Of a DNA stretch of 23,464 nt, positions 1,150 through 23,464 are shown piece after piece (positions within the stretch are counted from its first letter, which is position 1; each line of letters starts with the position of its first letter). The notes below the pieces were generated by a model. It worked only from the letters and a program-made list of their open reading frames with translations, searched no databases and was not told the origin of the DNA. This stretch comes from a virus. The stretch is from positions 1 to 23,464 of the IMG/VR virus record IMGVR_UViG_3300042395_000079; one strand, 5' to 3'. The position numbers and the translations under genes are program-made.

Positions 1150-1596
1150 ATGAATAAGTACGAAAATTTATACGAAAAAGGAAAAGATTATTTACAAGAC
1201 ATAAATCAAGATCAAATTTCTCTTATTCCTAGAAGTGCTGGGTTTATTTCTCCGGGGGATGTATTATCTTTTACTTATTCTGGGGGTAGCAGACTGTTCG
1301 TTTTCGTAGTTAAAGTTAAAAGAGGAAACGGAATATTTTTGAGTGGACAGGGGAATTTATTGGTTGCTTGTTTTAAACTCACAACTACAGCACCGCAAAT
1401 AAGTGCTCAGGTATTGAAAACCCTATATAAAAATAGACGAAGTGCTAGTTATACGACAGTCCACAGAGGACTTAGAGCTATTTTTGGCACTGGTAGTTTT
1501 AGAACATACAATCTATCTAAAATAAGTGATTTGGTACAAGTCCAGATAGATATAAAAAAATTGCCATCCGCAGAAGAAGATGAGGTTGAAGAATAA
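1150..1596 (+). CDS. Unidentified small protein, first gene of tail operon
   Basis: A 148-aa protein with no clear family. The central part (residues about 30-75) is beta-rich with short strands: PGDVLSFTYSG, RLFVFVVKVKRG, GIFLSGQGNLLVACFKL. This pattern suggests a small barrel or SH3-like fold. It is followed by a helical segment (QVLKTLYKNRRSASYTTVHR) and a short 'FRTYNLSKISDLVQVQID' strand-helix-strand segment, then an acidic tail. No signal peptide or membrane segment is present. It has a good AAAGGA site and its stop overlaps the ATG of the tape-measure-like gene (TAATG), so the two are likely co-translated. In T4 the genes before the tape measure include hub assembly factors (gp26, gp51, gp28), so an assembly or minor hub role is possible, but that rests on position only. 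Confidence 0.85.
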   Translation: MNKYENLYEKGKDYLQDINQDQISLIPRSAGFISPGDVLSFTYSGGSRLFVFVVKVKRGNGIFLSGQGNLLVACFKLTTTAPQISAQVLKTLYKNRRSASYTTVHRGLRAIFGTGSFRTYNLSKISDLVQVQIDIKKLPSAEEDEVEE

Positions 1597-3434
1597 TGGC
1601 TTCTGGTAAAAATCCGTTAGATACAATCGCTAATGCACTTAAAGGGCCTAACGGAATTTCCGGGATGGTTAAGGCTCTAACTTTAAATAATAAAACTTTA
1701 AATACTAATAATAAAAATTTACAAAAATTAAACACTTCTATCCTAGCCTTAACTAAAAAAATGGGGATGCCTCCACCTCCACCTCCTCCGCCACCGCCCC
1801 CACCCCCTCCCCCTCCCCCACCACCACCTCCTCGGGCGCGACGCGCACCACCCCCTGATTTAAGAGTTTTGATGGAAGGTGCTGGGGATGTCTTAGGTAG
1901 TTTAATTGGAGCGAATAACTTAACTGATTTAGTTGGCACCATGTCCAACTTCATAAAACAGGCCGATTCTATTTCCAAGGAAGCTACTAGACAAGGCGCA
2001 ACCATTGCTTCAGTAGCGGACTCTTTGGGACCAGAACTAGGTAAACTTTCTGGTAGAAATGAAGAACTTACCAATGCCTTGGAAATGTTGGATGCTGGAC
2101 TATCCATAAACAATGAACAAGTCAGGTTGTTAAGTTTGCAAACTAGGGCCGCAGGCGGGGATTCTAGAATTCTTCAACAAACCTTTAGAAGATTAGTAGT
2201 TACTGGCGGTGCGAATAACGCAGAACTTTCCGACATGTCTGTAAGACTTGCACGCATGCGTGACACCTTTAAAATGTCAACAGACAAGTTGATTGGGGCG
2301 ATGGCTGACTTGGCTGATAATTTGGATTTGGCATTCTTTGGGGTCACAAAAGAGTTTAGCCTTGCAATAGCCAGCTTGGAAGGAAAATTCGGTGCAGGTG
2401 CTGGAGATCCATTCAAACGATTGACGGATCAGTTGATGAATCCTGATTTCTTTGGTAGAGCTTTGCAGTTTGGTTTGCAAGATGAAATTGATGTCCTTAC
2501 AAGTCAGACGGCAACGCAAGAAGAAATTCAACAAGCTTTGATGTCTGTTGTCGCTACGATGAAGCCCCAGATAGATATCATGCGAGGAACTCTTGGGGGC
2601 ATGGGTAGCCAAACTGTTGCGTTGCAAAGGTTAGGTGATTACTTTGGAGGAAAAGATTTTGTTACTACGATTGAACAACTTTCAAAGATGACCCCTCTAG
2701 AGAAACCGGGAATTGAAGGCGCGAAGGCGGAAGATCCGTTTAAAAATTTAGAGAATGCGCTTAATCAAGCCACTACTTATTTACAAGATTTAGCAAGTAA
2801 AGTAGTTCCATTTTTAGTAGAACACATTGGCATTTTAGTAAAGACTCTTTTATTTGTTGGAAGTCAAATCATTGTTGGATCGCTTGTTAGGTCGATGGGG
2901 ACAATGGCTACGAGCCTCCGCAGCAATTCAATTTATCTTAGAGCTTTAGGTAAATCTATAGGGGGCATAGGTAGTGCAATTTCTATGGTGGGCAGAGGAC
3001 TCGGCATGTTTTCTCGATTACTAGGGTTTGTTGGAAGATTCTTGGGGCCTATAGGAATACTAGTATCATTGCTCATGACTTTCTTACCTGAAATATTAAA
3101 CTTCTTCAGTGATGAAGAAACATCTAAGGATGATCAAGGTGATGAAGCTAAGAAACAGGCAGCAGCAGAAGAACGCAAAAGGTTGGCTGAAGAACGAGAT
3201 AGGCTAAGTCGTTCGGCACAAGAAGCTTTAAACTACAAAACCAACGATTACTTACAATTACAATCTAAGAGTTTAGATGATACCCTTAGAAGCATTCAGT
3301 TAGGTAATACTAACTCTGCGGAAGCTCTTGGTTTACAGGAACAACAAGTAGATTTACTAAGAATGTTGATTGGAGTTGTACAAAACAATACAAACAGGGG
3401 TCAGGCTCCAATCCCCGCAGGAGTTAGGAGATAA
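1596..3434 (+). CDS. Tape-measure-like tail protein with polyproline tract
   Basis: A 612-aa protein, close to the 590 aa of T4 gp29, the tail-length and hub protein. Residues 1-58 are polar and helical, and residues 59-79 are 21 consecutive prolines followed by RARRAPPPD. Residues about 85-400 are helical and rich in Ala, Leu, Gln and Ser, as in tape measures. Two strongly hydrophobic stretches lie near residues 405-431 (HIGILVKTLLFVGSQIIVGS) and 481-505 (GPIGILVSLLMTFLPEILNF), with a Gly/Ser/Met-rich stretch between them. A highly charged segment at about 506-545 (EAKKQAAAEERKRLAEERDR) and a helical tail complete it. Hydrophobic segments of this kind are typical of tape measures that enter the host membrane during ejection. 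It overlaps the upstream gene by one base and is followed by the tube/adaptor gene. The tape-measure call rests on composition, size and position. The alternative is another large hub component. Confidence 0.7.
   Translation: MASGKNPLDTIANALKGPNGISGMVKALTLNNKTLNTNNKNLQKLNTSILALTKKMGMPPPPPPPPPPPPPPPPPPPPPRARRAPPPDLRVLMEGAGDVLGSLIGANNLTDLVGTMSNFIKQADSISKEATRQGATIASVADSLGPELGKLSGRNEELTNALEMLDAGLSINNEQVRLLSLQTRAAGGDSRILQQTFRRLVVTGGANNAELSDMSVRLARMRDTFKMSTDKLIGAMADLADNLDLAFFGVTKEFSLAIASLEGKFGAGAGDPFKRLTDQLMNPDFFGRALQFGLQDEIDVLTSQTATQEEIQQALMSVVATMKPQIDIMRGTLGGMGSQTVALQRLGDYFGGKDFVTTIEQLSKMTPLEKPGIEGAKAEDPFKNLENALNQATTYLQDLASKVVPFLVEHIGILVKTLLFVGSQIIVGSLVRSMGTMATSLRSNSIYLRALGKSIGGIGSAISMVGRGLGMFSRLLGFVGRFLGPIGILVSLLMTFLPEILNFFSDEETSKDDQGDEAKKQAAAEERKRLAEERDRLSRSAQEALNYKTNDYLQLQSKSLDDTLRSIQLGNTNSAEALGLQEQQVDLLRMLIGVVQNNTNRGQAPIPAGVRR
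1770..1832 (+). repeat. Proline-codon microsatellite, 21 consecutive Pro codons
   Basis: Twenty-one CCN codons in a row (mainly CCT, CCA and CCC, with a few CCG) encode residues 59-79 of the tape-measure-like protein. The plus strand is almost purely C/T/A here. It is followed by the GC-rich CGGGCGCGACGCG encoding RARR, in sharp contrast with the AT-rich surroundings. Slippage in such a tract would stay in frame only in steps of three bases. Confidence 0.95.
3426..3430 (+). promoter_or_regulatory. Ribosome binding site of tube/adaptor gene
   Basis: AGGAG ends 6 bases before the ATG at 3437, inside the last codons of the tape-measure-like gene. It is one of the best Shine-Dalgarno matches in the window and supports this start. 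Confidence 0.7.
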
Positions 3435-3436
3435 TC

Positions 3437-4480
3437 ATGGCAATACCACAACAAGGATTCGGTAATGCATTTATAAAACAAAGCATAGTCGAATCAGCAA
3501 AAGCTACAGTCTCTGTTTATAACAAGGTTCCTCCTGATTCTTACTTCAATAGGAAATTAGAAGAAAGATCTTACTTAAGATTTGAATTTTATGAATCAGG
3601 CAAAGAATCTCCCCATGTCAGATATTTGCTTTTCTACGAAGATCCAGAAATAAGGGAATCAAGAAAAGCCATACATGCCAAGTATCAGCCAGTTGGAAGA
3701 AACTCAACTTTGATGTCTTTCACTGGTGCAGAATCAAGAGTCTTTTCCATAAACTTTAAGATGACTCTTCCTCACATTTTGGCTTATGGTGACACTATGT
3801 ACATGAACAGAAGTACACCATTCAAGAGCAAAGAAGAACTTAGAAAAGAATTTACAAAAAGTTTTGGGGATTCTAATGATCCTAAAATAGAAGCTTTACT
3901 TGGAAAAGCAGAAGATCATGACAGGTATTTTTTAGATTTAAATCGTGATTATGAACCTGTACGAACCTCTCCAGAAGATTTTTTTGCTCCACCGTTAAGA
4001 ACCTCTCCAGAAGATTTTTTTAACCCACCTCGTCCTGTTGTGGATAAAGGAGTAACAGAAGTCAGACGGGCTGCGGATAACTTAAGACCTCAGATTACTA
4101 AAGCTATTGATCTTATCATGTATTGGGTAAATTTGGTTAGAGTATCCATCCTAAACAATGCAAAAAATCCGACAAATGGACCCCCAATAATAAGATTAAA
4201 TCATGGTATAATGTATCAGGATGTTCCTTGTGTAGCTTTAGATTACAAAATAGATTATGATAAAAACCATGGATATGATCTAAAAACTTTGTTGCCTCGC
4301 GTGATATCCTTTGAAATAAATTTACAAGAAATCAGAGTTGGTGATTTCGGAGAGTTTGATGTAAAACAAATATCTAAGAGAGACAATAGTGTTGGATGGG
4401 AAGCCATGGTAGGGAACATCAATACAATTGATCCGATTAGATTGGATATAGGAACAGATTACAAGAGTAGAAGATTATGA
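3437..4480 (+). CDS. Baseplate tube/adaptor-like protein
   Basis: A 347-aa protein, in the size range of T4 gp48 (364 aa) and gp54 (320 aa), which cap the hub and start the tail tube. Residues about 85-114 carry PVGRNSTLMSFTGAESRVFS followed by INFKMTL. This is a motif type seen in tail adaptor proteins of contractile systems that ends in a beta strand. Residues about 248-305 resemble a tail-tube fold: PPIIRLNHGIMYQDVPCVAL, then a YDKNHGYDLKTLLPR stretch, then ISFEINLQEIRVGDFGEFD. The linker in between carries a 12-aa tandem duplication, RTSPEDFFxPP(L/R). A strong AGGAG site precedes the ATG. The stop overlaps the next ATG as ATGA. The call as a hub-to-tube connector is inferred from motifs and position. 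I cannot tell whether it corresponds to gp48, gp54 or a P2/XkdP-like adaptor. Confidence 0.65.
   Translation: MAIPQQGFGNAFIKQSIVESAKATVSVYNKVPPDSYFNRKLEERSYLRFEFYESGKESPHVRYLLFYEDPEIRESRKAIHAKYQPVGRNSTLMSFTGAESRVFSINFKMTLPHILAYGDTMYMNRSTPFKSKEELRKEFTKSFGDSNDPKIEALLGKAEDHDRYFLDLNRDYEPVRTSPEDFFAPPLRTSPEDFFNPPRPVVDKGVTEVRRAADNLRPQITKAIDLIMYWVNLVRVSILNNAKNPTNGPPIIRLNHGIMYQDVPCVALDYKIDYDKNHGYDLKTLLPRVISFEINLQEIRVGDFGEFDVKQISKRDNSVGWEAMVGNINTIDPIRLDIGTDYKSRRL
3962..4033 (+). repeat. 36-bp tandem duplication inside the adaptor gene
   Basis: Two adjacent 36-bp units (3962-3997 and 3998-4033) encode RTSPEDFFAPPL and RTSPEDFFNPPR. The first two thirds of each unit are identical at DNA level apart from the first codon (CGA versus AGA). 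The last codons differ, so the copy is recent but not brand new. Confidence 0.9.
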
Positions 4481-4782
4481 TTAGTGTTAACACAGATAGA
4501 ACTAGATATGCGGTAGGTCAAGTGCTTATGGACCATCGAGGGGTTAAAACCAATACTTCGGTTGGTCACCCAGCAAATGACCTGCTGGTTAAATACATGA
4601 ACAGAATTTATGATTTTGATATTGGATATATCCCAAACGGATATCAACATAGACCGGACGCAATATCAGAATTATTCTACAATTCTCCGGGTTACTGGTG
4701 GCTAATAATGCTAGCAAATAATATTTCAGACCCTTTTGAACAATTAAATGTAGGCGACAGAATTTTAATTCCTAAATTATGA
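4477..4782 (+). CDS. LysM-like baseplate protein, gp53/gpX type
   Basis: A 101-aa protein. Its second half reads HRPDAISELFYNSPGYWWLI, then MLANNISDPFEQLNVGDRIL and a terminal IPKL. This is the classical LysM-like tail motif: a short Tyr/Trp element (PGYWWLI, residues 71-77), ANNI-DP, and a closing 'G..I.IP' strand. It is found in T4 gp53 wedge proteins and in P2 gpX-like tail proteins. It is shorter than T4 gp53 (196 aa), so it is close to a minimal LysM unit with an N-terminal extension. It overlaps both neighbours by four bases (ATGA), which predicts coupled translation and an equimolar or linked role. It probably bridges the hub/adaptor and the wedge. Family assignment is fairly sure; direct correspondence to gp53 is less so. 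Confidence 0.8.
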   Translation: MISVNTDRTRYAVGQVLMDHRGVKTNTSVGHPANDLLVKYMNRIYDFDIGYIPNGYQHRPDAISELFYNSPGYWWLIMLANNISDPFEQLNVGDRILIPKL

Positions 4783-7592
4783 CTAAACCAATCCCCACAT
4801 TCAATATTCTAATTGCCTTTGACAAAAAAGTTTTTTCTGGTTTAAAAAAGGCGATAAAGCAAGGTTCCTTTTCATCATATTTGGGTGCCGCGAAAGACTA
4901 TGTACTATTTAATAATATCTCAGATAATTTTATAAAGTTAGCCCATGCTTATTCTTTTCAACAAAAAGAAGGAAGTGAGACTGACAATTTTACTATCACT
5001 TTAGAACTTTTAGACCCCGGTAGAGTTTTTGAACAAAATTACATTGCAAACTCATTAAAGCAATTATTAGCTCCTAAGAGTGGAAACCTGTTTGACGCTA
5101 CTGATACTGAAGAAGAAATAGCTAGATTACAAAATATATTAGATCATCAAAATGAGAATGACCCCGATTTCTGGAAAAACATGGGGGCCGTGGCATTAGT
5201 TGACGGGACAATTGAAAACGATTTATATAATTTAAGCAATGAAAAAAGAAACAAAAGAAATTTCAATATAGTCGCTCCCGGGGAAGAGGATGAAACACCA
5301 GAACAAATAAAAGAACGAGGGGAATTGGAGTATCAAAAATTAGTAAATGAATTTGAGGCTAAAAGACAGCAATATATTACAGAAATTCAGGCACGGTTAG
5401 CTAGATTACAAAACCCAAAAGGCTTGGCAAATTTTTACATATCGTATGGATGTGGTGATAACCTAGACAATTGGGCTGGGCCTTTCCTTTGTACTATGAC
5501 GGGTGCAAAAATTGGATTTTCTGCTGAAACTGGATTTAGAACCGTCACTGTTCTTTTTACCGTGGATTCGGAGTTTCCGGGATTAACTCCTATTGATTCA
5601 TCACGATTTGAATTAGGTAGAGATATACAAATTTTTGGACAATCCCCTTTGATTACTACCATAACACAAGACCCAGTAAACTTTACAGATTTTTTTTATG
5701 GGGGATCAGATGATGTTCCACTACTTAATGCAACCAAAGAACAGAAAGATAGAGAAGAAAAAGCTCAAGCTAGTAGAGTGAGTCAACTAAACTCAACTGG
5801 AAGTTCCCCCGGAGAAGAGGGTGTTTATGATTATCATTATGCAATATCGGAATGTATAAAAGATTATTTAAAAAAAGCCACTGCTAACAAAGCAAACATA
5901 GTGGTATTGTTCCCCGATATAAACTTATTGATGAAACCATTGGAAGACAGTTATAACAGGGAATATAGGTTTAATTCTAACTTGTATGGAAATGCTCCAA
6001 TATATGTTAAACTGCCTAGTGGGAAAGAGCAGGCTATTAGCAAGAGGAGATTGTATGTAGTGCCTAAAATTCTAAAAGATTTAGGTTTTGACATAACATC
6101 TGAAATTACATCGGGTGACAAAATAATTACTTATAGCGATACAACATTAATTTCACCAAATGGAACTCCTGATGCAAACGCAAAAGTCGTTGAGCGGGTT
6201 ACAGATGCAGCAAGAACTGCAAAAAATTTGCAAATTAGTTTAGTCAAAAAACCGGGACAAACTTTCATGGATCCTTTGAAGATTGTTACTGCTGGGCTAT
6301 CTACTGGTTTGCAAGTTATTAAACCTGTATTCATGATTGAAAATAATGTTGATTTCATAAAAGATTTTAAAGAATATTGCGACAAACACGGGGCAGAGGA
6401 AAGAGCAAGAAGACAAGAGATCGAGTCCAACTTTGATATTAGACAAAAGATTCGTTTAGGTGAGCTTTCAGGAAGACGGCAAGAAATTCTAGACATAGAT
6501 CCAGAAAAACCAATTTTAATTTATGGTGATAAAACCATGATTGATAGGTTTTTTTATGGTAAGATAAAACTAGAAAAAATAGGATTGTTCAAGTTTGGTT
6601 TTGGCGGTGACGAGGCAACTTTGGCGGAGATTGAAAAAAGTAAAAAAGCAGAAGATCCAACAAATATTTATTTTAATTATAATTATCTTTTTGCATATAG
6701 AGACAAAAAATTTGCTTCGGATGAATACTTCCAAATAGCGAACAAATATTTCCAAATAGCTAAACAAGATAATTGCTTTAATTCATACTCTTTACCGAAG
6801 TCACAATTTGCATTTGATGTCGTAGATCAGCAAAGACTAGAACAAGCTAATATCCCAGTATTTAAATTTGGGGTTCAAGATCCAAATGTTTTGGATCTTG
6901 ACATGGATGTTAATCATTACTATTTTAATATATTAAATAAAATAGTTTATGAAACAACTAAACTCCATCGAGGGTCTAGGGGCACAGTAAATAAAACGGA
7001 TGAAGGCTTTAATGCTTTGTTAGAATTGGACAAATTTCATGTTTCTAATATTATAAAAAACTTCACAGTGATAAAACCAGATGGGACCAAAGGGTTAAGC
7101 TACACAGGAATCAAGGCTGCAAAAGAGTTATCCTTATTTGCTGAAACTTCGGAAGAAGATATCGAAGCAGTTTTTGCATCCTTAATGGCTTTGTCTGGAG
7201 ACAAAACTTTAGTTAAAAACTTAGAATGGTGGAAAAAAGAAAATCCGACTGTACATTTTTTAACTATGTTGGAAGAAATGTCTCAATTAGCATATCGAGG
7301 AACCATTCGAACTTTACCTTTCTTCCACCTGTCCAATAGTGTTGGATCTATCAACCCCGCATTGCTTTTTGTGAGAGAATCTTCAATATTAGGAATCAAT
7401 AAAACCAATTCCATTAGCGATGTGCTTAACGGGCTGTGGGTGATTTATGGGTACGAACATTCAATAGGAAAAGGAGAAGCTTATTCTACATTCCATATTA
7501 CAAAAGATATTAGAATCCAAATGCCAAAGCCTATGATGCCAATAGGTAAGAAGTCTACAGAACCCATAGAAGTTAAAGAGGCAGAGGAGTGA
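4779..7592 (+). CDS. Large baseplate hub protein, gp27/gpD-like
   Basis: A 937-aa protein, more than twice the length of T4 gp27 (391 aa). The N-terminus (NILIAFDKKVF, then an aromatic/beta segment ending in ETDNFTITLELLDPGRVFEQ) resembles the first tube-like domain of hub proteins. Residues about 168-210 form a charged helical insertion rich in Glu, Gln and Arg. Residues about 220-270 return to beta structure (GPFLCTMTGAKIGFSAETGF, VTVLFTVDSEFPG). The last ~100 residues, from about 838, carry YRGTIRTLPFFHLSN, then a segment ending LWVIYGYEHSIGKGEAYSTF. This is the conserved second-domain pattern of gp27, gpD and VgrG hubs, where a short 'G-W-x-I-x-G-x-x-H' beta motif closes the ring. The gene lies directly before the spike gene, as expected for hub and spike partners. 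It has an ATGA overlap with the upstream gene. The hub role is well supported; the roughly 500-residue middle region is unexplained. Confidence 0.75.
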   Translation: MTKPIPTFNILIAFDKKVFSGLKKAIKQGSFSSYLGAAKDYVLFNNISDNFIKLAHAYSFQQKEGSETDNFTITLELLDPGRVFEQNYIANSLKQLLAPKSGNLFDATDTEEEIARLQNILDHQNENDPDFWKNMGAVALVDGTIENDLYNLSNEKRNKRNFNIVAPGEEDETPEQIKERGELEYQKLVNEFEAKRQQYITEIQARLARLQNPKGLANFYISYGCGDNLDNWAGPFLCTMTGAKIGFSAETGFRTVTVLFTVDSEFPGLTPIDSSRFELGRDIQIFGQSPLITTITQDPVNFTDFFYGGSDDVPLLNATKEQKDREEKAQASRVSQLNSTGSSPGEEGVYDYHYAISECIKDYLKKATANKANIVVLFPDINLLMKPLEDSYNREYRFNSNLYGNAPIYVKLPSGKEQAISKRRLYVVPKILKDLGFDITSEITSGDKIITYSDTTLISPNGTPDANAKVVERVTDAARTAKNLQISLVKKPGQTFMDPLKIVTAGLSTGLQVIKPVFMIENNVDFIKDFKEYCDKHGAEERARRQEIESNFDIRQKIRLGELSGRRQEILDIDPEKPILIYGDKTMIDRFFYGKIKLEKIGLFKFGFGGDEATLAEIEKSKKAEDPTNIYFNYNYLFAYRDKKFASDEYFQIANKYFQIAKQDNCFNSYSLPKSQFAFDVVDQQRLEQANIPVFKFGVQDPNVLDLDMDVNHYYFNILNKIVYETTKLHRGSRGTVNKTDEGFNALLELDKFHVSNIIKNFTVIKPDGTKGLSYTGIKAAKELSLFAETSEEDIEAVFASLMALSGDKTLVKNLEWWKKENPTVHFLTMLEEMSQLAYRGTIRTLPFFHLSNSVGSINPALLFVRESSILGINKTNSISDVLNGLWVIYGYEHSIGKGEAYSTFHITKDIRIQMPKPMMPIGKKSTEPIEVKEAEE
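6726..6767 (+). repeat. 21-bp tandem duplication in hub gene
   Basis: Two adjacent 21-base units (6726-6746 and 6747-6767) encode YFQIANK and YFQIAKQ. The DNA differs at only a few bases. It is a small in-frame expansion by seven residues, about two helical turns. Confidence 0.8.
7585..7589 (+). promoter_or_regulatory. Ribosome binding site that decides the spike start
   Basis: AGGAG lies 5 bases before the ATG at 7595. A GTG at 7589 in the same frame would overlap this site and leave no spacer, so the ATG at 7595 is preferred. Confidence 0.7.
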
Positions 7593-8489: not shown

Positions 8490-11132
8490 ATGGTTTATTT
8501 TGACCTACAAACAGCAGCAAAGGTATTTGGGGAGGGTGCAAGCCCGGTAGACTCCCTAGCTACAGCATTTGGAGTTCCACAATGCTTATTAGATATTGGA
8601 AAAAGTGCTGCATTAGCACTACTACCCAGCAATGCTGTTTTGGGTATTTCAGAAAAAATCCAACAAGGTCGAGATAGAGCGTCTTCCCACATAGCCAGTA
8701 TAAAAAAGAAGATTCTACAACAAAACGGAATCTTTGAAATTGATACAGAAAATGGAACTTTTAGATTTACTTCGGATTTCAGCAGAAACGGTTCAGATAA
8801 GGATGCGTTTAGTTTAGGAAAAGAAGTTGGCGCAATTGCTGATGCAGTAGGGTATGCTACACAGTTTGGAACTGAGCTTTACGCCAATTATTTAGGTGCA
8901 GCGCAGGTAGTAAACGGGGTAATTGATTGCGTAAACACTTATAAGCAGTTCTTAGATTTGCAAAAAGGACCATCTGCATTAAAAGCAAAACAATTAGATC
9001 CCAACTATGTGGAGACTCAGTATGCAGTTGAGATAGCAGAAGTCCAATCATCTTTGGCTTTCATAGCAGAGGCCGACGAAGCTTTGCAAAACGCAAGAAA
9101 TGTAATGGCAGCAAGGCTTGCCGATCCAACACTAGAGCCAGTATTTATCAATTCAGATTTGGTTTCGGGTACAGGGTTCCTTACTGCGAAGGATCTCTCA
9201 TCCGCTCCGACAGATCCAATATTTAGATTAGTTTTTGGCCCACCCAAATCCAAAAAGGGGCAATTCCTATTGTCTGTTGATGGTTTGTATTATGATTCGC
9301 AATCCGGTGGGCTTCCTACAGTAAGCGGTATCGTTCTCCCTGAAGAAAAATATAAGTTTGAACAAGATGCAAACTTGGGAGGAAAAGGGTTTGGGGTTTC
9401 TTTAAAATCAATCAATGATTATGTCGATACTATTTTTGATTTAAATGTAATAGACAACTCTGCGGATATGATGGAGCAATATGACGCAGATCATTTTTAT
9501 TGCATTCTAAGAAATCAAAAAACAAAACACATTTATGATTTGTCAGCGCAAGTCGGAATAGCTGAAACATACGAAGGCGTTGCCGTTGTAAATAATTTGA
9601 GACAATCTTTGTATTCTACTGCTGCCATGTATGACTCAAAGATTAATAGGCGTAAAAAACAAATTGAAGTCGCTATCAAAGCACCATATTTGTTTGGAAA
9701 AGGAGCCTTCTTCAAAAAGGGAGAAGTCCCAATCAATGATTTTTCATACTTAAAAGACCTTAACTTAGCCGTAGCATATGAGAATCAAAAGAAATTAGTT
9801 TTGCGTCAAGCAGAAGTATCAGGAGTCGTACTACCCCTCAAACCCAAGTTCGTGACCGCACCTGAGGCTGAATCTGTGGTTACTATGAATCATTTAGTTG
9901 TTCCATCTGTTGGAGCAGGTGCAATTGTTTATGATCCAGATTCAAATGGATCGCAAGCATCCATATTGTCACTCACTGATGTAATTGTTAAGGATGGTCT
10001 TTTTGCAATCTACAACTTCTTGGATGGAGAAGTTACCACTATAGGGTCTGACAAGTACAATGTATTGAATTGTGCAAGTAGCAATAATTACAATAATGCT
10101 CAATTAATTGCTAACACGCCATCTTCAGTATTTAGCAAAGGACTAGCAATACCTCGATTCAATGGAATTGCAACTTATTCAACCGCTACAAGTATTAATG
10201 GAATTGGTTCTTTTGCAATAATGCCTGACACTAGGGAATTTCAAGATTGGACTTACAGCCCCAAAGGATTTACTTTTGAGTCTTGGGTTTACACCCCCGG
10301 AATTTCTAGAGTTGTTACTGGGGATATTAATCCAACAACAGGGTATGGAACATCCACCATGCATCGAATTATCCTAGGCTGTGAAAACACAGGTGGATTA
10401 AATGAATCATTGGATCCAACTCAAGTAGGTTATTCCAACAATAGCACAGTTACCAAAGGAATGTTAATTGGGTTCACTAGAGATCGCCAACTTACATCTA
10501 GCCTTGCGCCTAACGCTACAAATAGCTCAAATCCAGCATCTGGTGGAATTTTTTATATAGCTCCTACTAGGTCAATTAACGCATCAGATATTGCGTTTAT
10601 AAATAAAGCAAGCATAAATGGTTGTGCGTCTGGTTATGAAGTATTAAAGTGCGCCATTCCTATATCCAAGCAGTTAGCTAGTGGAAAATATGTAAGTTCT
10701 GTAAACTCAGAATTTATGCATTTTAGTGTCGCAGTTGATCCACAGTTAAACCAAGTTAGGATAGCCGTCGATGGTGAATTAGTGGCTACATCTGCCTTGT
10801 CCGATGTATTTGGTGTCCCTCCATACACAGCTCCGGGAATACCATCATTTAAACAATCTAATAGTTTTGAATATTCGTTCTCGTCTACCGGATCGCCATT
10901 CCATATAAATGGACCAAAACTTAATGATTACTTCACACCGTGGATTTTAGGTGGGGGTTATTCTGATGGAAATAAAAACGCAGGAGGGTTTATGAATTTA
11001 GATTCAGGACTCAGAAGCGGGTTAAACGGCCATTTAGGAAGTGTTAAATTTTACTCAAAAGCCCTAACTACTAGTGAGACTAAGACTAATTTTGATGGGC
11101 AGAAAGGGTTCTTCAAGAACATTGACTTATAA
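8490..11132 (+). CDS. Large structural protein with C-terminal LamG/concanavalin-like domain
   Basis: An 880-aa protein between the spike and gp25 genes. Residues 1-170 are helical and Ala-rich (SLGKEVGAIADAVGYATQFG). Residues about 170-490 are mixed and unrecognised. Residues about 500-880 look like a concanavalin A-like/LamG jelly-roll: GLFAIYNFLDGE at about 502, then GFTFESWVYTPGI near 593, DPQLNQVRIAVDGELVATSA near 750, and a closing LNGHLGSVKFYSKALTTSE near 846. These match the usual LamG order of 'f-t-x-e-x-W-v', 'v-a-v-d-g' and 'G-x-l-g-x-v-x-x-Y-x-x-A-L'. Such domains often bind glycans, so a cell-surface contact or virion-decoration role is likely. No good Shine-Dalgarno site is visible, and the start depends on coupling from the spike stop two bases upstream. 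The first 500 residues could be a baseplate attachment part. Confidence 0.75.
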   Translation: MVYFDLQTAAKVFGEGASPVDSLATAFGVPQCLLDIGKSAALALLPSNAVLGISEKIQQGRDRASSHIASIKKKILQQNGIFEIDTENGTFRFTSDFSRNGSDKDAFSLGKEVGAIADAVGYATQFGTELYANYLGAAQVVNGVIDCVNTYKQFLDLQKGPSALKAKQLDPNYVETQYAVEIAEVQSSLAFIAEADEALQNARNVMAARLADPTLEPVFINSDLVSGTGFLTAKDLSSAPTDPIFRLVFGPPKSKKGQFLLSVDGLYYDSQSGGLPTVSGIVLPEEKYKFEQDANLGGKGFGVSLKSINDYVDTIFDLNVIDNSADMMEQYDADHFYCILRNQKTKHIYDLSAQVGIAETYEGVAVVNNLRQSLYSTAAMYDSKINRRKKQIEVAIKAPYLFGKGAFFKKGEVPINDFSYLKDLNLAVAYENQKKLVLRQAEVSGVVLPLKPKFVTAPEAESVVTMNHLVVPSVGAGAIVYDPDSNGSQASILSLTDVIVKDGLFAIYNFLDGEVTTIGSDKYNVLNCASSNNYNNAQLIANTPSSVFSKGLAIPRFNGIATYSTATSINGIGSFAIMPDTREFQDWTYSPKGFTFESWVYTPGISRVVTGDINPTTGYGTSTMHRIILGCENTGGLNESLDPTQVGYSNNSTVTKGMLIGFTRDRQLTSSLAPNATNSSNPASGGIFYIAPTRSINASDIAFINKASINGCASGYEVLKCAIPISKQLASGKYVSSVNSEFMHFSVAVDPQLNQVRIAVDGELVATSALSDVFGVPPYTAPGIPSFKQSNSFEYSFSSTGSPFHINGPKLNDYFTPWILGGGYSDGNKNAGGFMNLDSGLRSGLNGHLGSVKFYSKALTTSETKTNFDGQKGFFKNIDL

Positions 11133-11584
11133 TGGCGACTAATTTTTACGGAAGACCAGTTTCAAAAGCGATCCAGAAGGATGTAGTTTCCACTACTAAA
11201 AAAATCTATGGATTCTCTTACCCATTGGTTGCTAATCCTAAACGGGGTTACTTTTCAAAAGAATCTGGTGTTACTCTGGTTAGAAATAATTTAAGACAAT
11301 TACTACTAACCACAAAAGGTGAGCGAGTTATGCTCCCAGATTTTGGCACTAATTTAAAGTATTTTTTATTTGAGCCATTAGATAAATTTACTGTTCAAAA
11401 CATACGAGACGATATTCTTCTTGCAATTAATAAATATGCTCCGGGAGTTAAAGTAGTTAGTTTGCGAGTATACCCAAGTCAGAGCATAAGCATGGAAGGA
11501 CTGCAAGGTCTTTACATAAATTTAACTGTGCAAGTTGAAGAGCTTAACCAGCAAACCCTAGATGTGAATGTGGAGATAGGATAA
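11132..11584 (+). CDS. 25: Baseplate wedge protein gp25
   Basis: A 150-aa protein of the gp25/gpW (VCA-type) family, near the 132 aa of T4 gp25. The core motif is GERVMLPDFGTNLKYFLFEP (about residues 65-84), matching the family pattern 'GER.m.P.fG..l...lFep'. It is followed by helical DKFTVQNIRDDILLAINKYA and a strand PGVKVVSLRVYPS that continues into the LQGLYINLTVQVEEL beta hairpin. gp25 joins the wedge to the first sheath ring and helps trigger contraction. Its stop is followed after one base by the ATG of gp6, the usual pair in all contractile systems. It overlaps the LamG gene by one base. The family call is firm. Confidence 0.94.
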   Translation: MATNFYGRPVSKAIQKDVVSTTKKIYGFSYPLVANPKRGYFSKESGVTLVRNNLRQLLLTTKGERVMLPDFGTNLKYFLFEPLDKFTVQNIRDDILLAINKYAPGVKVVSLRVYPSQSISMEGLQGLYINLTVQVEELNQQTLDVNVEIG

Positions 11585-11585
11585 C

Positions 11586-13163
11586 ATGGCATTTAACGGA
11601 ACCGTACAATCAGACTTTTTAAAGTTAGTAAATATTCCTGAGTCTAAGCGCGGGGATACGATTGATTATGCCGCTACGGATTTTTTAACTTTAAGAACTG
11701 CCCTTGTAAATTATATCAAAGCAACATATCCTTTAGATTATCAAAATTTTTCTGAGTCTGATCTCGGCATGATGTTGATTGAACTAGTAGCTTACATGGG
11801 AGCAGTCATGTCCATGAAAGCTGATATGCTTGCAAATGAATCGTTCCTATCAACTGCAAAAAATAGAAACAATGTAAAAAAATTGATGGAGCTTGTTGGG
11901 GTTAGAATGAAAGGGCCTATTTCTTCGGTCGCAAATGCAAGATTGTCTTTTAATTCAGCAGTTACTAACGCACCATTAAATATAACCCCATCCCAGAGGG
12001 TCGTTTCAATAGCGTCCCCAGAAGATGGGGGTCCTCTTAATTTTACTTTGTACAAAACAGAACCCGGTGGAGCTTTATCTCCAATTAGTTCAGATGCATC
12101 TATTGATCTAACTACTGGAGAATCCGAAAATACTGCCAGCACAGTCTGGACAAATTTAGCTTTGCTAGAAGGCGCATTAGTTATTCAAACTGGGGCATTT
12201 AATTCTACAGATTTAATAAAAAGAGTGGCATTGACCACATCTCCGGTTGTTGAGAAGAGTGTAGAGGTTTATATCACTTCAAATGACGCTGCTGCCTCTG
12301 GTGCTTGGACTCAAGTGGACAATCTATTCTTTGCTTCCGGTGGCGGTGAACGATTGTATGAAATTGTGTATGACGATTCCTATGGTGCAACTGTAGTTTT
12401 CGGAGACGGTATTGTAAGTAAATCTCCTCCCGCAGATGCGGAATACACAATAGCATACAGAGTTGGAGGTGGCACTAGAGGTAACATAAATTCGGAAATT
12501 ATTAATACCCAATTGATTATTGGTTCTGACACGGGGACTTTGGAAAATGTTACACTTGCAACAGGAGGTCAGGATTCTGAGACAGTAGAACATGCCAAAC
12601 GGTATGCCCCTCTAACATTCAAACGGCAAGATAGATTGGTCACAGCCGAGGATTATTCTACTTTTGCAAACGCATTCGTAAGCCAAACCGGAGCTACAGG
12701 AAAAGCTCGTGCTGTAGTTCGGGACGCTTATAGTTCAGCTAATATCTTAGATATCTACCTCTTACAGATAGCCTCCCCCCTTCAATTACAACAAGCTACT
12801 ATTCCATTTAAGAGTGACTTGCTTGCTGCGATGCAACCTAAAAAAATGCTTACAGACGAGATAATTGTGGTGGACGGGTTGATAAGAACTTTGGATTTAG
12901 TGGTGACGGTAAGAATAGATAAGAATTTATCTGCAAAAGAAGAGTTGATAAAAGGTAAAGTTAGAAGAAGAATAACAAACTTCTTCAATGTCAACAACTT
13001 TGATTTTGGCAAAACACTAGTTCTCGCAGACCTCAATCGTTCTATATTTACCATACCTGAAGTACGGTATGCAACTGTTGATAATTTAGATACGGATGTT
13101 ACAGTGGATTTCAATGAAATAATCCAACTGAACAATTATACAATTAATATAGTGACAGTCTGA
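11586..13163 (+). CDS. 6: Baseplate wedge protein gp6/gpJ
   Basis: A 525-aa protein of the gp6/gpJ (baseplate J) family, shorter than T4 gp6 (660 aa) but longer than P2 gpJ. The N-terminus has the typical IDYAATDFLTLRTALVNYIK opening and a SDLGMMLIELVAYMGAVMSM helix. The middle carries ERLYEIVYDDSYGATVVFGD and 'YRVGGGTRGNIN', which fit the J-type GDG beta motif. Residues about 337-357 are VEHAKRYAPLTFKRQDRLVT followed by AEDY, the family's best signature. gp6 dimers form the inner iris ring that holds wedges together and couples baseplate opening to sheath contraction. A weak GGAG/AGG region precedes the ATG. Its stop overlaps the next ATG as TGATG. The family call is firm. Confidence 0.92.
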   Translation: MAFNGTVQSDFLKLVNIPESKRGDTIDYAATDFLTLRTALVNYIKATYPLDYQNFSESDLGMMLIELVAYMGAVMSMKADMLANESFLSTAKNRNNVKKLMELVGVRMKGPISSVANARLSFNSAVTNAPLNITPSQRVVSIASPEDGGPLNFTLYKTEPGGALSPISSDASIDLTTGESENTASTVWTNLALLEGALVIQTGAFNSTDLIKRVALTTSPVVEKSVEVYITSNDAAASGAWTQVDNLFFASGGGERLYEIVYDDSYGATVVFGDGIVSKSPPADAEYTIAYRVGGGTRGNINSEIINTQLIIGSDTGTLENVTLATGGQDSETVEHAKRYAPLTFKRQDRLVTAEDYSTFANAFVSQTGATGKARAVVRDAYSSANILDIYLLQIASPLQLQQATIPFKSDLLAAMQPKKMLTDEIIVVDGLIRTLDLVVTVRIDKNLSAKEELIKGKVRRRITNFFNVNNFDFGKTLVLADLNRSIFTIPEVRYATVDNLDTDVTVDFNEIIQLNNYTINIVTV

Positions 13164-21909: not shown

Positions 21910-23464
21910 TGGCTGGCTTTAAAGAAAGTTCGTTTGTATTTACTGATCCCATTCGTTATTTTAAAGAAAACGATCCATATTATTGGGAAGTAGATAATAT
22001 TCCATTAAAACAATTACAAGAAAACTGCATGTGGTTGAAGGGTCAAATAGCTTCTAACCCAGCAGCGGATGGAGTTGATAGAAATGAATTGAACGAGCTT
22101 CGCCCATATTCAGAAGGGAATACTAATATAATAAAAGTAAAACCCGGAAGATTTACTGCTCGTATCAATGATGCATACAATAAAGATCCTCTGCAAAAAT
22201 TGCAGATGCTGACTGGAGATTTATTAGCATCCTATGAATCATTCAACAACCCTTCTGGATTAACTTTAGCTGAAGCAGTATTAACTAGAATTCAAAGCAC
22301 AGTATCGACAAATGCTTTATCCTTGAATGGACTCATCGAGCGTGTTTTATCTTGGCCTGTTATTAACGATGATGAAGTTTACGGAACTCAAATAGTTAAT
22401 AGTTTTCCTGTTCCCGGATCTACATCATACACTAAATGGCCCTTGTTGAGTACATTCCCATTTGTACCTACTTTAATACAAGCTTATGGCGCAGCGGGAG
22501 AATTACCTAGAATATCCGCAGAATTTATAAAACAATTCCGTGGTGTAGCGAGAACTGCCGTAGTAGATGTTCCTGAAGAGTTGTCAATTCAAATCCCAAA
22601 TTTTGATGCAAATGACTTTTTTACAATAGATTCCACTGGCACAAAAACATTGCTTAGTAATGCAAGCGTTAGAATAGACTTGTTGTTTGTATACAGCAAA
22701 CCAGTAGATGTATCTTCTACTACTCTACAAAAATGGTCTGGCGGTCAACCAGTTACTATCACAAAACCAATTTTAGGATTGGTTAGAGGTGCTGGAGTTG
22801 GAATTAATAGATCCGATTATTCTCTCACACCCGCACGCGATGCAGGTGGGAATACTCAAATCCTCGCAGATTACAAGGATTCATTACTACCCACAAATGG
22901 ATTCCAAGCAACTTCAATTGATGTGCATGGATCATTCCCTAGCCCGGATGATTTAATGAATATCGCTCCAATAATTTCTGAAAAATTATCAGAGACAGAT
23001 ACTCAACTAGTTGGACAAACCATACTACCTTTGGCTTACATAGTTGTTCGTAAAAATGCCATAGTAAATTCTTTAGGAAATGTCGTATTGTCCGACAGCG
23101 ATGTAATTGACATCAGGCCCTTCTTTAGAACTACAGAATTAACTTATGGTGAGCGTGCCGGATTAGCTGCTGCATTGCCTTCACCATCCTTAGCTAACCC
23201 AGTAGTTACTCAATACAATTTAGACAACCAAGTTAATGGTGTTAAATCTTATATTGATTCAGAAATTACTAGAATCACAGGATTAATTCCCGGGGATACT
23301 GGTGGTGGAGGTGGCGGAGGTGGAAGTCCTATAGTAACCCCTAGAACTGTTGCTGGGGGTACTATTTGGGGAGGTTTGAATTTTGGCCCAGAAGGTGCGA
23401 TCAATACACAGCTACAAACTTTGGGTCAAGAAAATATTTTTGACGATAATACAGTACCAGAATT
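21909..23464 (+). CDS. Large virion protein, 3' end outside window
   Basis: The frame starting at ATG 21909 stays open to the window end (518 codons plus two bases, no stop). Translation begins MAGFKESSFVFTDPIRYFKE and continues NDPYYWEVDNIPLKQLQENC, then a helical stretch (WLKGQIAS). Residues 24-36 match the attachment motif of the beta-helix protein just upstream (W-E-x-D-N-(L/I)-P-x-x-x-L). The following region (residues about 40-450) is mixed alpha/beta with no clear family, including a 'GRFTARINDAYNKDPLQKLQ' segment and 'VRKNAIVNSLGNVVLSDSDV'. At about residues 465-472 eight glycines form a hinge, after which a new part begins (TVAGGTIWGGLNFGPEGAIN). Its size, position and shared motif suggest a fibre or wedge-rim protein of the same virion layer. 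The stop of the previous gene overlaps its ATG (TAATG). Confidence 0.85.
   Translation, partial: MAGFKESSFVFTDPIRYFKENDPYYWEVDNIPLKQLQENCMWLKGQIASNPAADGVDRNELNELRPYSEGNTNIIKVKPGRFTARINDAYNKDPLQKLQMLTGDLLASYESFNNPSGLTLAEAVLTRIQSTVSTNALSLNGLIERVLSWPVINDDEVYGTQIVNSFPVPGSTSYTKWPLLSTFPFVPTLIQAYGAAGELPRISAEFIKQFRGVARTAVVDVPEELSIQIPNFDANDFFTIDSTGTKTLLSNASVRIDLLFVYSKPVDVSSTTLQKWSGGQPVTITKPILGLVRGAGVGINRSDYSLTPARDAGGNTQILADYKDSLLPTNGFQATSIDVHGSFPSPDDLMNIAPIISEKLSETDTQLVGQTILPLAYIVVRKNAIVNSLGNVVLSDSDVIDIRPFFRTTELTYGERAGLAAALPSPSLANPVVTQYNLDNQVNGVKSYIDSEITRITGLIPGDTGGGGGGGGSPIVTPRTVAGGTIWGGLNFGPEGAINTQLQTLGQENIFDDNTVPE
23301..23324 (+). repeat. Eight-glycine codon run
   Basis: GGN repeated eight times encodes residues 465-472 of the last gene, a flexible hinge between two unlike parts. 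The codons vary (GGT, GGA, GGC), so it is not a pure nucleotide repeat. Confidence 0.85.

Follow-up and report, generated by a model that had tools for sequence, protein, structure and literature searches.

The putative tape-measure protein (TMP) of an uncultured phage carries an unbroken run of 21 prolines inside an N-terminal insertion of ~85 residues that its sister phages lack. The gene was analysed within a 23,464-nucleotide stretch of viral DNA (i.e. the window; IMG/VR record IMGVR_UViG_3300042395_000079). Our main reading, to which a probability of roughly 0.5 is assigned, is that the tract is a proline linker that spaces a coiled-coil cap from the core of the TMP. The tract most likely serves as a stiff linker specific to this lineage and not as a core part of the ruler, because the whole segment is absent from a sister phage.

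The probable tape-measure gene and its neighbourhood

The 612-aa protein is probably the TMP of a contractile-tail phage, an assignment resting on a PHROG match, a helical model and baseplate neighbours. The match to phrog_167 ('tail length tape measure protein') covered residues 112-491 with a modest score (E 1.8e-5), and proteins of relatives matched three further TMP PHROGs (E 1.3e-4 to 4.4e-4); the tape-measure-like character proposed in the first-pass annotation is supported by these matches, which fall short of proof. A Pfam search with the 612-aa protein returned no match. AlphaFold predicted helices only, with weak overall confidence (mean pLDDT 58, pTM 0.29). Many of the Foldseek matches to this model were tail or tape-measure proteins, none of them below an E of 0.001, and solved structures gave weak matches only, mostly to helical bundles. 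Translation is predicted to start at ATG 1596, preceded by a Shine-Dalgarno-like GATGAGG (-6.3 kcal/mol), and the gene lies within a tail/baseplate module with homologues of gp53, gp25 and gp6 downstream, in an order kept in many uncultured relatives. The protein resembles the contractile-tail TMPs T4 gp29 (64 kDa; PMC3004832) and diffocin CD1366 in its baseplate operon, its length of ~600 aa, its helical character and its place in a tail module, but differs from both in carrying the ~85-residue N-terminal insertion with 21 prolines. The coordinates of the features are collected in Table 1.

Table 1. Features of the tape-measure region and of the tail/baseplate module in the window
Feature	Position	Strand	Evidence
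Conserved 148-aa gene just 5' of the TMP gene	1150-1596	+	Overlaps TMP start (TAATG); 63% identity in L203/L204, 32% in L214
Probable TMP gene, 612 aa	1596-3434	+	phrog_167; TAATG start overlap; Shine-Dalgarno-like GATGAGG; all-helical model
Lineage-specific N-terminal insertion, ~85 residues net within residues 2-92	1599-1871	+	Alignment; residue counts before KQAD; L344
Predicted long helix, residues 20-55/56, heptad L28-L35-L42-I49-M56	1653-1763	+	AlphaFold, block pLDDT ~63-79
21-proline tract, residues 59-79	1770-1832	+	Translation; identical genes in L002/L003; codon count
RARRA basic patch then PPP, residues 80-87	1833-1856	+	Translation
Conserved 347-aa protein 3' of the TMP gene	3437-4480	+	Synteny in ~30 loci; no PHROG/Pfam match
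gp53/LysM-like baseplate wedge protein	4477-4782	+	phrog_7145, 3.4e-8
gp25 baseplate wedge protein	11132-11584	+	PF04965, 1.6e-13
gp6-like baseplate wedge protein	11586-13163	+	phrog_219, 6.5e-40

The 148-aa protein encoded upstream had no PHROG or Pfam match, and the fixed position of its gene before the TMP gene suggests a role in tail assembly. It was considered as an SH3-like partner of the prolines and rejected, as its predicted fold was poor (mean pLDDT 38) and the gene is kept by the sisters that lack the prolines. By position, the 347-aa protein encoded downstream is a candidate tube initiator (i.e. gp48/gp54-like); it contains a short internal duplication (RTSPEDFFAPPL / RTSPEDFFNPPR) at 3960-4035. 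An exonuclease-like gene (phrog_69; 3-725) lies directly 5' of the tail genes, and a similar gene is so placed in L203, L204 and L211-L214. The group is uncultured, because the gp6 protein shared at most ~26% identity with isolated phages among the matches listed. Searches for isolated-phage relatives of the TMP, its N-terminal part, an 880-aa protein and the 347-aa protein found none, and scans of prokaryote genomes likewise found nothing.

The proline tract and the N-terminal insertion

Translation of 1596-3434 bore out the first-pass annotation in that residues 59-79 are 21 in-frame prolines followed by RARRAPPP (the PPP being residues 85-87, 1848-1856) in AT-rich DNA (GC of the window ~0.37). 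All four proline codons occur in the tract (CCT 8, CCA 7, CCC 4, CCG 2), in a mix similar to the proline codon usage of the window outside the tract (chi-square p = 0.93), and no stretch of one and the same codon is longer than three. This background-like mix and the short same-codon repeats make the tract unlike a fresh triplet-repeat expansion and suggest an older tract held as proline. PPP was found in no other protein of the window. A run of 21 prolines would be expected ~1e-25 times if residues were independent, a null that is too harsh as duplication lengthens tracts of this kind; the count of (CCN)21 in IMG/VR is a better measure, and there a scan of 2.9 million viral contigs gave at least 120 stretches. 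Many of these lay outside convincing genes and several within large proteins of AT-rich phages, e.g. the protease-like L263 and L252, and in the tail-fibre-like L264. Among the matches listed (80 contigs) for ATG followed by at least 10 CCN codons, the longest run was that of the window's phage. Long polyproline linkers are rare but known among phage proteins.

Low-complexity sequence invites the suspicion that the tract is an assembly or frame artefact; evidence of an assembly artefact had been named by the first-pass annotation itself as a possible refutation. The artefact reading is barely credible. The 1839-base gene is identical in two contigs from other metagenomes (L002 and L003). Elsewhere, contigs of this phage depart from the window's sequence at 5-28 bases over 7.3-16.7 kb, and agreement of the gene in three contigs that are not otherwise identical makes an assembly artefact unlikely. 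Homology in frame extends both downstream of the tract and upstream (i.e. in L344, below), and the other forward frames reach stops within ~31 codons. A programmed frameshift at the C-rich tract was discarded on the same ground, namely that both other forward frames stop within this distance. A poly-Gly gene on the minus strand (1517-2113) was dismissed as a shadow ORF, since the plus frame has homologues on either side of the tract.

The extent of the insertion was defined by comparison to the sister phages L013 and L014 (TMP loci L203 and L204), whose gp6 is 78% identical to that of the window. The TMP start overlaps the upstream gene at the same TAATG junction in the window and the sisters, with GAATAATGGCT in both. 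The window has 120 residues before KQAD as compared to 35 in L203/L204 and 492 as compared to 482 from KQAD onwards, so that the cores are almost equal in length. The insertion sets in within a few residues of the start; its parts are, in order, a predicted helix showing a heptad pattern, the 21 prolines, RARRA and PPP, after which an ordinary TMP core follows. The ~85-residue segment was gained in the window's lineage or lost in the sisters, and alignment favours a gain because the short form is shared by nine more distant relatives whose N-termini are complete. PPP was absent from all 22 related TMP sequences, some of them partial; the tract region is missing from the two closest of the partial ones (L008 and L010), which are truncated ahead of it. 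In the wider relatives, TMP length varies by other indels and in none of them through prolines. The suggestion that the tract varies in 3-base steps and so tunes tail length is not supported by these comparisons, in which exactly 21 prolines occur in three strains and complete genes differ only by the whole insertion. Homologues without any proline tract but with the same tail length and host range had been proposed as grounds for abandoning a role for the tract; the first part of this, a lack of the tract, is observed in the sisters.

A scan with residues 1-66 yielded one more relative, L344 (IMGVR_UViG_3300015375_000804; 78% DNA identity), in which the insertion's first 56 residues are retained with 80% identity and a dN/dS of ~0.25. 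Judged from this comparison, the N-terminal part of the insertion is under constraint. The L344 match (5001-5179) ends with its contig, only a few bases from the expected start of the prolines, and the last residues read are LKSL as compared to GM in the window; the low-complexity tract may have broken this assembly too, and L344 provides no evidence of prolines. The AlphaFold model places a helix (residues 20-55) immediately before the tract and gives the tract itself no regular structure. One heptad position of this helix is hydrophobic throughout (28, 35, 42, 49 and 56), a score equalled by 2.4% of shuffles (nominal p ~0.02), and L344 retains L28, L35, L42 and I49, with M56 replaced by L. 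The proline run itself was read in three nearly identical strains only, so that selection on it can be judged only indirectly.

In the diffocin TMP, a coiled-coil trimer and the only cryo-EM structure of a full-length TMP that our search yielded, the N-termini lie at the collar and the C-termini on the spike (PMC11329794). By analogy with this arrangement, and because the residues invariant among the sisters are at the C-terminus (partly because two alignment rows are cut off), the tract probably sits at the head end of the tape. The same two considerations make it unlikely that the tract acts as a docking handle for the hub, as had been proposed.

Explanations for the insertion

According to the main reading, three (or six) copies of the predicted helix would assemble into a short coiled coil at the tape's head-proximal end. 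The rise of a polyproline-II helix is 0.31 nm per residue, and the prolines would form rods of ~6.5 nm (21 x 0.31 nm) between this cap and the helical core, holding the two at a distance. Without such a spacer, two coiled-coil blocks might join up out of register. The measuring itself would fall to the core, which is of nearly the same length in the sisters without the insertion, and host EF-P would be required for translation. If this linker-and-cap arrangement holds, the N-terminal end of the TMP would be a site at which phages place modules with the core ruler unaltered, and sisters with near-equal cores, one of them longer by ~85 residues, would serve as a natural experiment on which TMP residues count towards the measured length. 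The protein would further provide a clear example of dependence on host EF-P in a virion protein. A more specific proposal, which we advance only tentatively and consider unlikely as a whole, is that of a modular head-proximal cap in which a helix that oligomerises, separated from the ruler by a stiff rod of polyproline, was gained as one block; a head-end function would then have been added without a change in the measured length, and tail assembly would have become dependent on host EF-P.

There is a smaller yet appreciable chance that the insertion is a tolerated by-product, i.e. a proline-rich joint that expanded through duplications of 3 or 6 bases and is neutral because additions are tolerated at the N-terminal end of the tape. 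The sisters live without it, Tandem Repeats Finder detected a 6-base unit (CCTCCA, 82% match) in the tract, and the third bases have a weak lag-2 periodicity, which was not significant (nominal p 0.035; 0.13 over all lags). Set against neutrality are the constraint on the adjoining 56 residues, the same tract length in three strains and the translation cost that a run of 21 prolines should carry. It is improbable that the insertion instead lengthens the ruler, such that the tail tube grows over it and the tail exceeds those of the sisters by ~15 nm (several tube rings). Tail length is in general set by TMP length (PMC9022992, PMC11329794) and the insertion, if extended, could span roughly 15 nm (58 x 0.15 + 21 x 0.31), but TMP length in the wider relatives changes through other indels and none of them uses prolines.

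Two further possibilities concern translation. Ribosomes stall at PPP motifs (PMC4176338), and polyproline pauses have been proposed to aid co-translational folding between domains (PMC5811046); the tract could be a programmed pause that gives the N-terminal helix time to oligomerise, or to encounter a chaperone, before synthesis of the hydrophobic core. This is quite unlikely, since PPP is enough for a pause and 21 prolines far exceed the need. Production of two proteins, a full-length form initiated at ATG 1596 and, from ATG 1872 (M93), a short TMP with the extent of the sister protein, appears very unlikely: M93 adjoins the aligned position of the sister N-terminus, but the Shine-Dalgarno sequence at 1872 is weak (-2.4 as compared to -6.3 kcal/mol at 1596) and the TAATG junction at 1596 is conserved.

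EF-P and other polyproline proteins

The TMP contains EF-P-type motifs (i.e. at least three consecutive prolines) in both the 21-proline run and the following PPP, and its translation is expected to depend on EF-P given the established stalling at PPP. In this respect it is like the bacterial EF-P-dependent polyproline proteins, whose motifs are known to stall ribosomes (PMC4176338, PMC5811046), but its run is much longer and occurs in a virus. Unbroken prolines between differently built regions were also seen in two phrog_3677 protease-like proteins (L263, 37 prolines; L252, 21 prolines) and join two such regions in a tail-fibre-like protein (L264); unlike the window's protein, none of these is a TMP. 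Among the 50 polyproline ORFs scanned, none could be assigned convincingly as another TMP with a run of this kind. One candidate, L291, was set aside as unconvincing, as its phrog_3547 match is confined to the end of a 484-aa protein. A search of the available literature for polyproline or proline-rich TMPs found nothing relevant.

Shorter polyproline proteins were observed as well. Small phage proteins of phrog_831 (69-74 aa; L126:4622-4828, minus strand, and L090:1862-2083, minus strand) start with MSFLxPK..MPPPPPPPPPP and form a family whose N-terminus carries a run of prolines. Short proteins of 71-92 aa with the form MCxG...MPPPPPPPPPPPP and no PHROG match occur in several phage contigs (L146:1745-1957, plus strand; L139:1060-1335, minus strand; L111:437-667, plus strand) and possibly constitute one family. 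Within the window, a short GGTGGCGGA repeat (poly-Gly) is located at 23301-23323 in the last, cut-off ORF.
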